A stretch of DNA of 64,000 nucleotides from Marinobacter shengliensis (GTDB taxonomy: Bacteria > Pseudomonadota > Gammaproteobacteria > Pseudomonadales > Oleiphilaceae): assembly GCF_003007715.1 (NCBI RefSeq), contig NZ_PXNO01000027.1, positions 992,001-1,056,000 on the forward strand, written 5' to 3'. This document shows positions 31,123 through 36,659 of the stretch, in pieces. The first letter of the stretch is position 1. Each line of letters starts with the position of its first letter. The position numbers were made by a program, and so were the translations under genes. The notes beneath the pieces were generated by a model that was not told the DNA's origin, made no database searches, and was given only the letters and a program-made list of their open reading frames with translations.

Positions 31123-31902
31123 TCAACCCCTGCCCTCGTTGTCCGCCTCGTCGCGCACACAGTCAAAGTCTTCTTCATGCAACGGCGGCAGCTCTCCGTT
31201 CTGATATTCACTGTTCACCTTACGGAGTGCTTTGCACATGGTTTCAATTCGATCATCCACCGCATGCATGTGGTCGAGGAGCGAACGCATGGCCCGGGCA
31301 ACCGGGTCTGGCATCTCTTCCGTCACACCATAGGCGTCAAAGCCCATGCGCTCTTCCATCTCCTTGCGCCGCACGTCATCGTCGGAGTGGCGCTTCACAA
31401 TCACCCGGCCCGGAATACCCACCACTGTAGCGCCGGCGGGGACGGCCTTGGTCACCACGGAATTGGAACCAATCTTCGCACCAGGGCCCACTTCGAACGG
31501 CCCAAGAATCTTTGCGCCTGCACCGACAACCACGCCATCACCGATGGTTGGGTGGCGTTTGCCTTTGTTCCAGCTCGTTCCGCCCAGGGTAACGCCCTGA
31601 TAGAGGGTGACGTCATCGCCGATAACCGTGGTTTCCCCGATCACCACGCCCATGCCGTGGTCGATAAAAAACCGCCGACCGATGGTCGCGCCCGGATGAA
31701 TCTCAATGCCAGTGAACCAGCGCGCCAACGTGGAGATGGTCCGCGCCAGCCACTTCAGCCCAAGATTCCAGAGCCAATGGGAAAACCGGTGAAACAGCAA
31801 TGCATGGAGGCCCGGATAATTGGTAAGCACCTCGAAGGTGTTCCGCGCCGCCGGATCCCGGTGAAATACGCTTTTGACATCTTCCCTTAAACGCTCAAAC
31901 AT
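31123..31902 (-). CDS. cysE: Serine O-acetyltransferase CysE
   Basis: Makes O-acetylserine for cysteine synthesis. The start is ATG 31902 ([19 protein letters not shown]), giving 259 residues; an upstream in-frame ATG at 31923 lies inside trmJ and is rejected. The left-handed beta-helix repeats run from about residue 65. The catalytic His is in [18 protein letters not shown], with [20 protein letters not shown] after it. It overlaps the trmJ stop by 8 bp and precedes iscR, the usual trmJ-cysE-iscR order. Confidence 0.96.
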
Positions 31903-32755
31903 GGCCTTTTTCCTGCCCCTCATCCGCAGTATTTTTCTGCTTGTCGCTCCCCGGCAGGGTTCCGGCAGCCTTTTGTACGGATGTCAGAATGCCCCTAAGG
32001 ATATTGATTTCCATCTGGTCAAGACGTGCGCGCTGAAACAGGCGTCGCAGGCGGGTCATCAGTTGCCTGGGGTTGTTACGACGATGGAAATCCACATCCA
32101 CCAACACCTGTTCCAGATGCCCGAAGAAGCCTTCCACCTCCTGCACTTCTGCCGGCGGCACATCCCAGCCACGGTCGCCCGGTCCAACCATGGCCTCAAG
32201 ATTGGGACTCGCCTCACCTTCTTCAAGGCTGCGCAGGTAATGCATGCGCAATTCGTAGCAAACCACCTGCACCGCCATGGCCAGATTCAATGAACTGTAG
32301 TCCGGATTCGACGGAATATGAATGTGGTAGTGGCAACGCTGAAGCTCATCATTGGACAAACCGTGGTTTTCACGCCCGAACACCAGCGCAACCCGACCCT
32401 GCCGGCTATATTCACCCGCCGTCGCCGCCGCCTGGGGTGGAGCAATCACCGGCCAGGGCACCTTCCGGCCGCGGGCACTGGTACCCATCACCAGAACACA
32501 ATCCGCCAGAGCTTCGTCAAGCGTGGCAACCACCTGGGCCCTGTCCAGAACATCTGAGGCACCGGCAGAACGCGCGTAGGAGGCTTCATCCGGGAACGAA
32601 GCCGGGTTAACCAGCCATAAGTTGCCCAGCCCCATGTTTTTCATCGCCCTTGCGACCGCACCAATATTGCCGGAATGCGAAGTTTCAACCAGGACGATCC
32701 TGACCTGATCATTGAACGTGTCAGAACCTTCCTGTGGCAATGCGGGCTTGTGCAT
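31895..32755 (-). CDS. trmJ: tRNA (Cm32/Um32) methyltransferase TrmJ
   Basis: SPOUT-class 2'-O-methyltransferase of 286 residues acting on position 32 of tRNA. The N-terminal [25 protein letters not shown] is the RNA-binding motif. The knot region includes [19 protein letters not shown] and [19 protein letters not shown]. The C-terminus ends in a charged extension ([18 protein letters not shown]) common in the family. It is divergent from the suhB-like gene. Confidence 0.95.
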
Positions 32756-32934: not shown

Positions 32935-33747
32935 ATGAACACTCAGATGCAACCAGCAATTAAAATGGCCCTGCGCGTTGCCCGCCAGGGATCAGATTAC
33001 CTGAAAGCACATTTCGAGCGACAGGAACCCAACGGCAAGGACGAGGCCGAGCGCTACCGCCAGCTCGAACGGGTTGAGAAATCCATTTATGACAACTTCA
33101 CCGAGCAACTGGAAAAGGCATATCGGGATCACACCATCGCACCGATGGGCGAGGCCGACGCCGCTGGCAGCGAGCGCAGCTGGCACATCTTCCCCGTGCT
33201 TGGCCGCGAAAACTTCATTCGTGGTATTCCGGAATTTGCCCTGGCACTGAGCCAGAAAAAGAACAACCGGACAGAAAACCTGTTGCTGGTCAATCCGATC
33301 ACAGGTGAAGAATATTCTGCCAGCCGCGGCCATGGGGCAGCCCTCAACAGCCGCCGTGTGCGCACGTCTGAAATCAAATTACCCGGCAAGGCGGCATTTG
33401 CCACCAACCTGCTGGATCAGGCTCGCAAAGGCGACGACCCGATGATCTGGGGCGAAATGGCCGCAGTGCTGGCGCGTGAGAGCGCCATGTTCCGCACCTC
33501 CGGCTGCGTTGTTCTGGATATTGCCCGCGTTTCTGCAGGCCTTCTGGACGCCGCTGTAATCTTCCGGCCGGAAGCCTCAGACCTGGACCTGGGTGTCACC
33601 CTGGCCATGGAATCCGGCGCACTGACTGGCGATTTCTCCGGCAACCCGTCTGCTGGCAATGCCAAACAGCTGGTTGTGGCCAATCCAAAGCTGTTCCGCG
33701 AAGTGCTCAAGGTATTGCACCCGTTCCGCGGCCGTCTGCCCAGGTAG
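32935..33747 (+). CDS. SuhB-like inositol-monophosphatase-family protein with a degenerate active site
   Basis: 270 residues; fold and length match SuhB (MQPAIKMALRVARQGSDYL, SASRGHGAALNSRRVR, ALTGDFSG). The metal-binding motif DPLDGTTNF is replaced by FPVLGRENF at 86-94, so both aspartates are lost. GEE is GEA at 72-74, and the WDxAAG motif reads SDLDLG. Phosphatase activity is therefore unlikely. E. coli SuhB also acts with NusA in rRNA antitermination, a role that does not need catalysis, so this may be the retained function (inference). The start is ATG 32935 or 32947. The gene is convergent with secF. Confidence 0.88.
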   Translation: MNTQMQPAIKMALRVARQGSDYLKAHFERQEPNGKDEAERYRQLERVEKSIYDNFTEQLEKAYRDHTIAPMGEADAAGSERSWHIFPVLGRENFIRGIPEFALALSQKKNNRTENLLLVNPITGEEYSASRGHGAALNSRRVRTSEIKLPGKAAFATNLLDQARKGDDPMIWGEMAAVLARESAMFRTSGCVVLDIARVSAGLLDAAVIFRPEASDLDLGVTLAMESGALTGDFSGNPSAGNAKQLVVANPKLFREVLKVLHPFRGRLPR

Positions 33748-33758
33748 ACTTCCCGGTA

Positions 33759-33798
33759 CAAAAAAACCGCCACTCCCTCACGGGACTGGCGGTTTTTT
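33759..33798. terminator. Bidirectional terminator between the suhB-like gene and secF
   Basis: Hairpin CCGCCACTCCC / GGGACTGGCGG with one mismatch and a TCAC loop, flanked by A8 on the left and T6 on the right. Works for both convergent units. Confidence 0.9.
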
Positions 33799-33838: not shown

Positions 33839-34792
33839 TCACATCCGGTTAAGCCACTCGGGCGGCTGCTCTTCTTCGGCTTCTTCACCGGTGCCTTCCT
33901 TCGCCGGTACCATCAGGTCTTCGCGGGTAACACCCATCACCATCAGCATATTGGCAGAGACATAGATGGAGGAGTAGGTACCCACAACCACGCCAATAAT
34001 GAGCGCAAGGGCGAAGTTGTTGATGGCCTCACCACCGAAGAAATACAACGCCAGCAACACCACCAAGGTTGTACCAGAAGTATTGATGGTACGGGTGATG
34101 GTCTGGTGAATGGACTCGTTGATGATATCCCAGGGCTCACCTACCCGCATTTTCCGGAAGTTCTCCCGGATACGGTCCGCCACAACGATGGTATCGTTCA
34201 GCGAGTAACCGATTACCGCCAGCAACGCTGCCAGCACGGTCAGGTCAAACGTCCACTGGAACAGCGCAAACACGCCCAGCACAATAATGACGTCGTGAGC
34301 CAGCGGTATCACAGACGCGATACCGAACTTGAACTGGAAGCGCATGCCCACGTAGATCAGCACCACCGCCAAGGCAATCAACAGCCCGAGACCACTGTCT
34401 TCTTTGAGCTCATCGCCAACCTGAGAACCGACGAACTCGGACCCCACCAACTCGAGCTCGGCGCCGGAGGCAGCCAGCATGCCAGCCACCTCACGGGCTA
34501 ACTGATCGTTCTCAGCTTCCGCCATGCGGATCAGGATGGTGGTATCCGCGCCGAAGTTCTGAACGACGAACTGCTCATAGCCGGCTTCTGCCAGTTGGTC
34601 CCGGATAGCGTCAAGGCTCGGCGCCTCGGCGTACTCCAGCTCTACTGAGGTACCGCCGGTGAAGTCCATGCCAAAGTTCAGGCCGCGAACACCCAACAAA
34701 GCCAGGGAAATCACCACCAGTGTGATCGAAAGCACGGAAGCAATCTTCCGCAACCCCATGAAATCAAATGGTTGTTTCTGTGTATCAGCCAT
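33839..34792 (-). CDS. secF: Protein translocase subunit SecF
   Basis: Inner-membrane partner of SecD that uses the proton gradient to pull secreted proteins through SecYEG. From ATG 34792 (MADTQKQPFDFMGLRK) it has 317 residues, normal for SecF; the longer upstream frame is rejected because it lies inside secD. The first helix is at about 18-38, the motif GMDFTGGTSVELEY at about 44, and five more helices follow, with GYSLNDTIVVADRIRENF and INTSGTTLVVLLALYFFGG. It overlaps the secD stop by 8 bp. Confidence 0.97.
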   Translation of the reverse strand: MADTQKQPFDFMGLRKIASVLSITLVVISLALLGVRGLNFGMDFTGGTSVELEYAEAPSLDAIRDQLAEAGYEQFVVQNFGADTTILIRMAEAENDQLAREVAGMLAASGAELELVGSEFVGSQVGDELKEDSGLGLLIALAVVLIYVGMRFQFKFGIASVIPLAHDVIIVLGVFALFQWTFDLTVLAALLAVIGYSLNDTIVVADRIRENFRKMRVGEPWDIINESIHQTITRTINTSGTTLVVLLALYFFGGEAINNFALALIIGVVVGTYSSIYVSANMLMVMGVTREDLMVPAKEGTGEEAEEEQPPEWLNRM

Positions 34793-36659
34793 TAGCCAGC
34801 TTCCCCCCGATCGACAATTTCTCGACCCTGCGGCCGCCGTAGACAACGTTCACAATGGCGCGACTGACCACCAGGGCACAGAACATCGAGGTCAGGATGC
34901 CGATGCTCAGTGTTACCGCGAACCCTTTGACCGGGCCGGAACCCATGGCAAACAGGATCACAGCGACCAACAGAGTGGTTATGTTGGCATCAAAGATAGA
35001 CACAAAGGCTCGACCATACCCCGCGTTAATCGCACTTTGAGGGGGCGCCCCGGATTTCAGCTCTTCCTTTATTCGCTCAAAGATTAGAACGTTGGCGTCA
35101 ACCGCCATACCCACTGTCAGAACGATACCGGCAATACCTGGCAAGGTAAGCGTGGCAGACAGAATGGACATACAGGCCAGCAGCAACATCAGGTTCAGGG
35201 TCAGCGTGATATTCGCCACTACCCCGAAGCCACGATAGAACACCAACATGTAGATGAGTACCAAGGCGAAACCAAAGGCAACAGAGGTTACACCAGCGTC
35301 GATGTTCTTCTGTCCGAGGCTTGGCCCAATGGTCCGCTCCTGAACAAAGTACATGGGTGCCGCCAGTGCACCTGCCCGCAACAGCAGCGCCAGCTCTGCA
35401 GCTTCCGGTATCGAATCCAGACCAGTAATGCGGAAACTGCTACCCAGCGCTGACTGGACGGTTGCCAGGCTGATCAGCCCCTTTTCCACAATCCGCTTTT
35501 CGACTTCCCGAATCTCACCGTCTACTTCCTGCGCTTCAGTCTCGGTGCGGAACTCGATAAACAGCACCGCCATGCGGCGCCCCACATTATTGCGGGTAGC
35601 GCGGTTCATCAGGTCGCCGCCAACCGAATCCATGGTGATGTTAACCTGCGGCTGACCATTCTCATCGAAGGCCTGCTGGGCATTAGCCACATTATTACCG
35701 GTGGCAATCACGTCCCGCTCGAGGCGAGCTGTTCGCTGGGGGTTGTCACGGAAACCGAACTGCTCGGTTTCTGCTCCCGGGGTATCCTGGCGGGCTTCCA
35801 TCCGGAATTCCAGATTGGCTGTTGCGCCGAGAACCCGCTTGGCCTGGGCGGTATCCTGCACACCTGGCAGCTCAACGATAATACGATCTGCGCCCTGGCG
35901 CTGAACCAGAGGCTCCGCCACGCCGAGTTCGTTGACACGATTACGGATGGTGGTCAGGTTCTGTTCCAGGGCATATTCCTGGATATTCCTCACTTCAGCT
36001 TCAGAGAGGGTCAGTGCCAACAGGAATTCGCCTTCCCGGGTGCTTTCATTGAGCAGAAACTCATTGTACTGCCGACGAATCAGATCAAAGGCTGCACTGC
36101 GAGACTCAGAATCCCGGAAGCTAAGAACAATCTCCCGGTTGCCTTCAACATCTCCACCCCGATAGCGAATACGCTCATCCCGAAGTTCTCTTTTGATCTG
36201 CCCGGAAAACGCCTCCAGACGCTGGCTGACAGCCGTGTCCATGTCTACTTCCAGCAGGAAGTGAACACCACCTCGCAGGTCAAGGCCGAGCTTCATCGGG
36301 CCTGCACCGAGGCTACGCAGCCAACCAGGAGTTGAGGGAGCCATGTTCAGAGCCACCAGGTAATCGTTACCAAGGGCGGCCTGCACTGCCGGGCGAGCCC
36401 GCAACTGCGCGTCGGAACTGTTCAGGCGAATCAGGGCATTGCGGTCTTCAAGAGAACTTTCCTTGACTTCGATCCCGCGGCTTTCAAGGGCGCCGAGGGC
36501 ACGGTCCAGCACACGCTGGTCTACCTCGGTGCTGCCCCGGGCGCCGGTAACCTGTATGGCAAAATCATCGGGAAAGAAATTCGGTAACGCGTAAATGAAC
36601 CCGATGACCAGTGCGAACACTATGATCAGGTTCTTCCAGAGAGGATACTTGTTCAGCAT
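34785..36659 (-). CDS. secD: Protein translocase subunit SecD
   Basis: RND-type component of the Sec translocon, 624 residues (family about 615-625). One N-terminal helix (about 7-25) is followed by a large periplasmic P1 domain (to about 440) and five C-terminal helices. The motif LGLDLRGGVHFLLEVD near residue 125 and GMAVDANVLIFERIKEEL near 520 are the SecD signatures. It sits in the yajC-secD-secF operon with 93 bp after yajC. Confidence 0.97.
   Translation of the reverse strand: MLNKYPLWKNLIIVFALVIGFIYALPNFFPDDFAIQVTGARGSTEVDQRVLDRALGALESRGIEVKESSLEDRNALIRLNSSDAQLRARPAVQAALGNDYLVALNMAPSTPGWLRSLGAGPMKLGLDLRGGVHFLLEVDMDTAVSQRLEAFSGQIKRELRDERIRYRGGDVEGNREIVLSFRDSESRSAAFDLIRRQYNEFLLNESTREGEFLLALTLSEAEVRNIQEYALEQNLTTIRNRVNELGVAEPLVQRQGADRIIVELPGVQDTAQAKRVLGATANLEFRMEARQDTPGAETEQFGFRDNPQRTARLERDVIATGNNVANAQQAFDENGQPQVNITMDSVGGDLMNRATRNNVGRRMAVLFIEFRTETEAQEVDGEIREVEKRIVEKGLISLATVQSALGSSFRITGLDSIPEAAELALLLRAGALAAPMYFVQERTIGPSLGQKNIDAGVTSVAFGFALVLIYMLVFYRGFGVVANITLTLNLMLLLACMSILSATLTLPGIAGIVLTVGMAVDANVLIFERIKEELKSGAPPQSAINAGYGRAFVSIFDANITTLLVAVILFAMGSGPVKGFAVTLSIGILTSMFCALVVSRAIVNVVYGGRRVEKLSIGGKLANG

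Follow-up and report, generated by a model that had tools for sequence, protein, structure and literature searches.

The usual annotation of SuhB is inositol monophosphatase (IMPase), though the protein's role in Escherichia coli needs no catalysis. The available passages of two papers state that the IMPase activity is dispensable for the complementation of E. coli suhB (PMC6614801, PMC4807359), which backs the view of the sequence-only reading of the present locus that this role is independent of catalysis. In another passage of the first paper, mutations of K251 and L254 abolish the binding of SuhB to NusA AR2, and the SuhB-NusA contacts named there are K251, L254 and K108 only. An R184A variant is discussed in connection with dimerisation, and variants that failed to bind polymerase, which the passage leaves unnamed, also failed in complementation (PMC6614801). 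The conserved motif-6 aspartate is a metal ligand, as stated in the accessible part of PMC5516325. The Nus complex also regulates suhB itself by means of a boxA in the suhB leader; the accessible section of PMC5725501 gives the boxA consensus as GYTCTTTAANA and reports that 34 of 55 genera have a putative boxA close to suhB, with the site 82 bp away in one genus.

The DNA analysed here, called the window, is a 64-kb stretch of the Marinobacter shengliensis genome. It contains a suhB-like open reading frame of 270 amino acids at 32935-33747 on the plus strand, surrounded by the following features.

Nucleotides 32947 to 33747, plus strand: suhB-like coding sequence with the probable start MQP, 266 amino acids (the longest open reading frame begins at 32935).
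Nucleotides 31895 to 32755, minus strand: trmJ, the divergent neighbour, used as a synteny marker (NCBIfam 311.7 bits, cut-off 280).
Nucleotides 33839 to 34846, minus strand: secF, the convergent neighbour (NCBIfam 310.2 bits, cut-off 160).
Nucleotides 33761 to 33798, no strand assigned: hairpin between suhB and the convergent secF (-24.3 kcal/mol, z -8.17), flanked by A and T runs.

The open reading frame was thus read correctly from sequence alone, but a start at 32947 is more likely than one at 32935, because relatives begin at an aligned M-x-P and because the open reading frames of two genomes of the genus (G104 and G144) are open from MQP, even though their family-search matches contain an in-frame TAG. 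Proline occupies E. coli position 3 in all 36 genus representatives of the alignment of degenerate SuhBs described below. The secDF/trmJ neighbourhood was recognised correctly as well, trmJ, secF and secD all being confirmed by NCBIfam. The hairpin is probably a bidirectional terminator; its stem has an internal mismatch, and the consensus scan listed no terminator at 33761-33798.

Inositol_P is the sole Pfam match of the encoded protein at E of 1 or lower (60.2 bits, cut-off 27). The top NCBIfam match, PRK10757, scores 100.7 bits, below the equivalog cut-off of 332. This cut-off is not diagnostic for SuhB, because few genomes pass it, 7 of 194 in the order and 59 of 232 in the class. By NCBIfam the protein is neither the histidinol phosphatase HisN (52.1 bits, cut-off 275.15) nor CysQ (21 bits, cut-off 228.8). 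By sequence as well as by fold, the solved structures closest to the window protein are those of SuhB from Pseudomonas aeruginosa and then, among others, SuhB from E. coli, which are 31-32% and 25-27% identical to the window protein, respectively. The predicted model (pLDDT 85.2, pTM 0.86) superimposes on P. aeruginosa SuhB (8wip) with a Z score of 32.0 and 2.5 Å over 266 residues, on E. coli SuhB in the rrn antitermination complex (6tqn) with Z 31.4 and on E. coli SuhB with NusA AR2 (6ib8) with Z 31.1. The model therefore bears out, together with the Inositol_P match, the claim that the length and the predicted fold of both SuhBs are kept. The best explanation of the gene is that it is the suhB orthologue of the M. 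shengliensis genome.

The catalytic residues of inositol monophosphatase are E67, D84, D87, T89 and D212 (E. coli numbering, used throughout). Three segments of the window protein correspond to them.

Nucleotides 33148 to 33156, plus strand: GEA replacing GEE (E. coli E67-E68), an ambiguous alignment.
Nucleotides 33190 to 33216, plus strand: FPVLGRENF replacing DPLDGTTNF, with D84 changed to F, D87 to L and T89 to R.
Nucleotides 33577 to 33594, plus strand: SDLDLG replacing WDxAAG, with W211 lost and D212 formally retained.

In the MAFFT alignment the five catalytic positions of the window protein are a gap, F, L, R and D. The sequence-only reading had described the phosphatase active site as lost. 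This stands for the DPxDGT motif, in which D84, D87 and T89 are clearly replaced, but not all of the catalytic residues are gone. GEA is present as described, while the loss of E67 depends on the alignment: MAFFT places a gap there, and on visual inspection the glutamate of GEA could match. Similarly, SDLDLG is present and W211 has disappeared, but D212 is formally kept as a D of SDLDLG. Compared to the SuhBs of P. aeruginosa and E. coli, the replaced residues are D84, D87, T89, W211 and R184. The last belongs to an R183-R184 pair that is invariant in 32 canonical sequences; in the window protein R183 is retained and R184 is T.

An error or quirk of a single genome is ruled out by searches of the family and the order. 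All 151 family genomes gave a match, 150 of them at E 3.3e-36 or better; the match at only 5.8e-8 in the remaining genome, which is 68% complete, is probably a paralogue. The loci read in the family were the window's own copy, the 29 nearest, three further members of the genus and 17 that represent 13 of the family's 15 remaining genera. A relative with a functional motif at this locus, which would have weakened the sequence-only reading, was not found among these 50: DPxDGT is absent in 49, and the 50th (L034, genome G118 of the window's genus) is frame-shifted and its readable part begins past the motif.

That frame shift, which splits suhB and leaves a fragment of 178 amino acids but may be an assembly error, is the kind of damage expected if the gene were decaying under relaxed selection. 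Such decay is scarcely credible, given the near-universal strong matches in the family and the ratios of dN to dS. These were calculated by the Nei-Gojobori method with our own script from 33 rows of the window's genus, one of them a fragment. In three dS bins (23, 64 and 166 pairs), the third with dS near saturation, the median dN/dS was 0.008, 0.024 and 0.066 for suhB, 0.027, 0.037 and 0.072 for trmJ, and 0.022, 0.041 and 0.071 for secF. The values for suhB are equal to or below those for its two neighbours, showing that the gene is under purifying selection and is not decaying. Pseudogene decay is thereby ruled out for the genus, unless the window's own strain differs.

The order was searched with a SuhB model, and 192 of its 194 genomes, representing 47 families, matched. 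A strong match (E below 1e-70) occurs in at least one genome of 36 families. The 11 families without one are f1, to which the window belongs, f6, f7, f15, f26, f36, f37, f38 and f44, as well as f3 and f12, for each of which the search contained a single incomplete genome. Matches are also weak in genus g93 of family f39 and, elsewhere, in a few poor assemblies. Beyond f1, degenerate SuhBs were read in f6, f7, f26, f36, f37, f38, f44 and f39.g93. The canonical motif was read in 32 rows from 17 families only, picked largely by best score. The alignment across relatives proposed by the sequence-only reading thus finds SuhB canonical in the 17 families read and degenerate in eight families that form a group. 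A wider contig scan, uninformative on frequency since it was confined to the 80 best of at least 587 relatives, most of them Pseudomonas, found carriers in Balneatrix alpica, Pokkaliibacter, Motiliproteus and Amphritea; among the same best 80 of at least 587, the Pseudomonas SuhBs had the canonical motif in three of three examined.

The neighbourhood is as widely kept. All 56 degenerate loci with long flanks (20 + 36) have trmJ in the opposite orientation within the fetched stretch. The canonical relative L153 has the same neighbours as the window gene, including trmJ, and the canonical relative L152 has secF and secD, with trmJ absent from its stretch.

Conservation of individual residues was assessed in an alignment of 86 degenerate rows, 32 canonical rows and E. 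coli SuhB, with L034 excluded. The window sequence and L004 are the same gene and are both counted among the 86. D84, D87 and D212 served as the criterion for a canonical row; E67 and T89 are nevertheless invariant in all 32. The full set of five catalytic residues is kept in none of the 86 degenerate rows, and what replaces it is specific to the family. This variation bears on whether the protein might still be an enzyme with an altered metal or substrate, its remodelled site acting on another phosphate ester with the help of D212 and perhaps E67. Position 212 is indeed D or E in 69 of the 86 degenerate rows, two of the four acids (E67, D84, D87, D212) are kept in five, and L253, of Motiliproteus sp. 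SC1-56, retains both D84 and D87. However, a new conserved chemistry would not be expected to leave replacements that differ from family to family, the five-residue set is wholly absent, and the once invariant positions K34, T41, D44 and W211 have likewise become some of the least conserved, making an altered enzyme very unlikely. L253 lacks E67, T89 and D212, and L118 and L120 keep only E67 and D87 of the five; judged by their residues, these three proteins are possible intermediate stages of catalytic loss.

The residues facing NusA have a different fate. The equivalents of the two NusA AR2 contacts and an upstream arginine pair lie at the following positions.

Nucleotides 33697 to 33708, plus strand: R255 and L258, equivalents of E. 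coli K251 and L254, a conservative replacement.
Nucleotides 33355 to 33363, plus strand: R141-V142-R143, containing the equivalents of E. coli R139 and R141; the arginine pair is present in every degenerate row (86 of 86) and every canonical row (32 of 32).

Position 251 is K or R in all 86 degenerate rows and position 254 is I, L, V or M in 83, the other three having S or A; exactly K and L are found in 22. The NusA-contact positions are hence kept, as the sequence-only reading required of a surviving Nus factor. The third named contact, K108, is conserved in neither the degenerate nor the canonical set. When all 267 columns are ranked by entropy in 36 genus representatives, K251 is 12th (tied at zero) and L254 44th, whereas D212 is 109th, D84 233rd and T89 264th. 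A similar contrast appears when the 107 columns with group invariance across the 32 canonical rows are ranked by conservation in the degenerate representatives. Here R139, R141 and K251 are 5th, 7th and 10th (ties at zero entropy), E222 and G224 are also at the top, and L254 is 33rd. D212 is 71st, E67 89th, D87 92nd, D84 99th, R184 100th and T89 107th, the last place; K34, T41, D44 and W211 are likewise near the bottom. R184 itself is invariant in 32 of 32 canonical rows and lost in 86 of 86 degenerate rows. The columns R139, R141, E222, G224 and K251 are candidates for a transcription surface, and R139 and R141 in particular are candidate RNA or polymerase contacts, to judge from their conservation.

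The genome encodes two other proteins of the Inositol_P fold at other places, in agreement with the earlier suggestion to look for a second catalytic IMPase. Both have intact catalytic residues: L001 is IMPase-like and has E and R at positions 251 and 254, and L002 is CysQ, with A and a gap. Replacement of SuhB by another protein was rejected, since both of the other Inositol_P proteins found in the genome are without the NusA-contact pair. As a control, 22 other IMPase-like proteins were taken from 20 genomes with degenerate SuhB and from the window's genome; their C-terminal alignment is less certain. The full catalytic set is present in 20 of the 22. The pair of K or R with I, L, V or M is present in none (singly, K or R at 251 in three and I, L, V or M at 254 in four), and R139 and R141 occur together in only one.

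The setting of E. coli and P. aeruginosa SuhB is shared by the window's genome in its rRNA boxA sites, its NusA with two C-terminal repeats, the NusA-AR2 contact positions and R139/R141. Of the 35 degenerate-SuhB genomes searched, 33 have a NusA with two C-terminal repeats and the two f39.g93 genomes have one repeat each; all 30 genomes with strong SuhB matches gave two or more repeat matches, the second being below the cut-off in G188. The four M. shengliensis rRNA operons found all have the boxA CGCTCTTTAAAA about 130 nt before 16S. The two rRNA leaders examined contain a boxB-like stem and a boxC-like GTGTGGGC, these box names being assigned by eye, and three of the four 16S contigs have further exact boxA sites at the expected location of the 16S-23S spacer. 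Exact GYTCTTTAANA occurs 23 times in this genome, compared to eight occurrences of the reversed pattern used as a control. Outside the rRNA operons, no Nus gene was recognised downstream of an exact boxA in the genome.

Upstream of suhB, an exact boxA was found within 100 nt of 12 of 85 degenerate genes (the 86 rows without the window duplicate), where the remainder of the loci predicts 0.014. Up to one mismatch, there are 23 of 85 in the same 100 nt, with 0.42 expected and none in antisense. The 12 exact sites, all in three families, are not independent: they lie 24-37 nt upstream in six of six f36 rows and one of four f38 rows, and 80-87 nt upstream in five of five f26 rows. Among canonical genes an exact boxA precedes one of 32 (0.015 expected) and a boxA with up to one mismatch 12 of 32 (0.15 expected). 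Unlike the boxA-regulated suhB of the E. coli type, the window gene has no boxA that could be found in front of it, and exact boxA is absent in all 50 rows of the window's family, three of which have a single-mismatch site within 100 nt. The loss of R184 and the missing boxA at the window gene argue against a fully E. coli-like mechanism.

These same two observations, with the change of K251 to R, are what would be expected if the protein had left the Nus complex in the window's family and become a neofunctionalised pseudoenzyme, whose remodelled pocket binds another partner, for example as a ligand sensor or scaffold. The pocket motif FP[VIL]LGR[ED]NF is fixed in 33 of 33 intact rows of the genus, yet the pocket differs between families. 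Such a departure is nonetheless quite unlikely. The NusA-contact positions and the arginine pair are retained in the very rows that lack boxA, and the two other Inositol_P proteins found in the genome are without the NusA pair.

The loss of the motif, the purifying selection, the conservation of the contact residues and the boxA sites are jointly explained if SuhB has been retained as a Nus factor without phosphatase activity. This natural separation of the two functions, proposed by the sequence-only reading for the single gene, is the probable explanation on the residues and their conservation, and it appears to apply to a whole clade. The absence of phosphatase activity, the binding of NusA and the role in antitermination are all inferred. 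The inositol-monophosphatase chemistry would be gone and the protein kept as a structural Nus factor. SuhB would bind both the rRNA leader (boxB-boxA-boxC) and the acidic repeat at the C terminus of NusA, and would help to seat NusB/S10, supporting antitermination and rRNA folding. After the loss, the empty active site would have drifted family by family, while the NusA-facing residues and the arginine pair stayed fixed.

This situation resembles that of the IMPase-dead laboratory mutants of E. coli SuhB, in which catalysis is likewise dispensable for the cellular role. In contrast to those mutants, the loss in the window's clade is natural, old and common to whole families. No report of a natural catalytically dead SuhB was found in the literature searched, which included few subscription journals and no supplements. 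Independence of catalysis in E. coli was already known; as far as these searches show, what is new is the large natural clade with an apparently dead SuhB. A clade without the active site in which NusA contacts, purifying selection and, in some families, boxA are kept is evolutionary evidence that selection maintains the Nus role. It also offers a ready set of separation-of-function proteins. The label 'inositol monophosphatase' at the suhB locus is likely wrong in the degenerate families.

The history of the loss was examined in a tree of 36 degenerate and 21 canonical SuhBs, calculated with a mixture model after removal of the active-site columns and rooted on E. coli. Thirty-five of the 36 degenerate genus representatives form one clade (99/100) nested in the canonical SuhB of the order; f39.g93 is separate, on a very long branch. 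One old loss of catalysis, probably in an ancestor shared by eight or more of the order's families, is the simplest reading, and the SuhB clade is consistent with it. Alternatively, the single clade is a product of long-branch attraction and catalysis was lost two to three times, which would change the history but not the function. A NusA tree of 59 genomes speaks for this, because it needs three changes: f36 and f44 are apart and one f5 genome, which has a strong canonical-type SuhB match, is inside the group. The lost residues also vary by family, and degenerate SuhBs exist beyond the clade too. However, the SuhB clade was recovered without the active-site columns and under a mixture model, and in an AU test the NusA data do not reject a single clade (p-AU 0.298). 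Two to three losses are consequently a serious but less favoured possibility. A bolder scheme, rather unlikely as a whole, would be an ancient clade-wide conversion to a pure transcription factor, with one loss of catalysis in a common ancestor of eight or more families, further losses in several other lineages, and the pocket reused in each family for a new contact in the antitermination complex (RNA, S4 or RNA polymerase).

The class was sampled by a search of 232 genomes, from which 12 with weak best matches were chosen by eye, together with G252 of f39.g93, and their best loci read. Five of the 13 are degenerate SuhB-like proteins (L221, L222, L224, L225 and L226) and the other eight have catalytic motifs. 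Because these five lie outside the clade, the loss of catalysis seems to be recurrent. The NusA pair is retained in three of them (K/L, K/L and R/V) and lost in two (S/I and P/Q). trmJ is nearby in four of the five, four of the five are in genomes of 1.1-1.8 Mb, and L222 has a stop within the matched frame.

Two side observations concern families of the order. In f15, which has small genomes, the best match in both loci read (L149 and L151) is an IMPase with the catalytic motif and without trmJ nearby, and SuhB proper may therefore have been lost there; in both genomes NusA nevertheless retains its two C-terminal repeats. In f39.g93, the SuhB-like protein found near trmJ (L226, L150) is highly divergent, which coincides in both genomes with a single NusA C-terminal repeat match.
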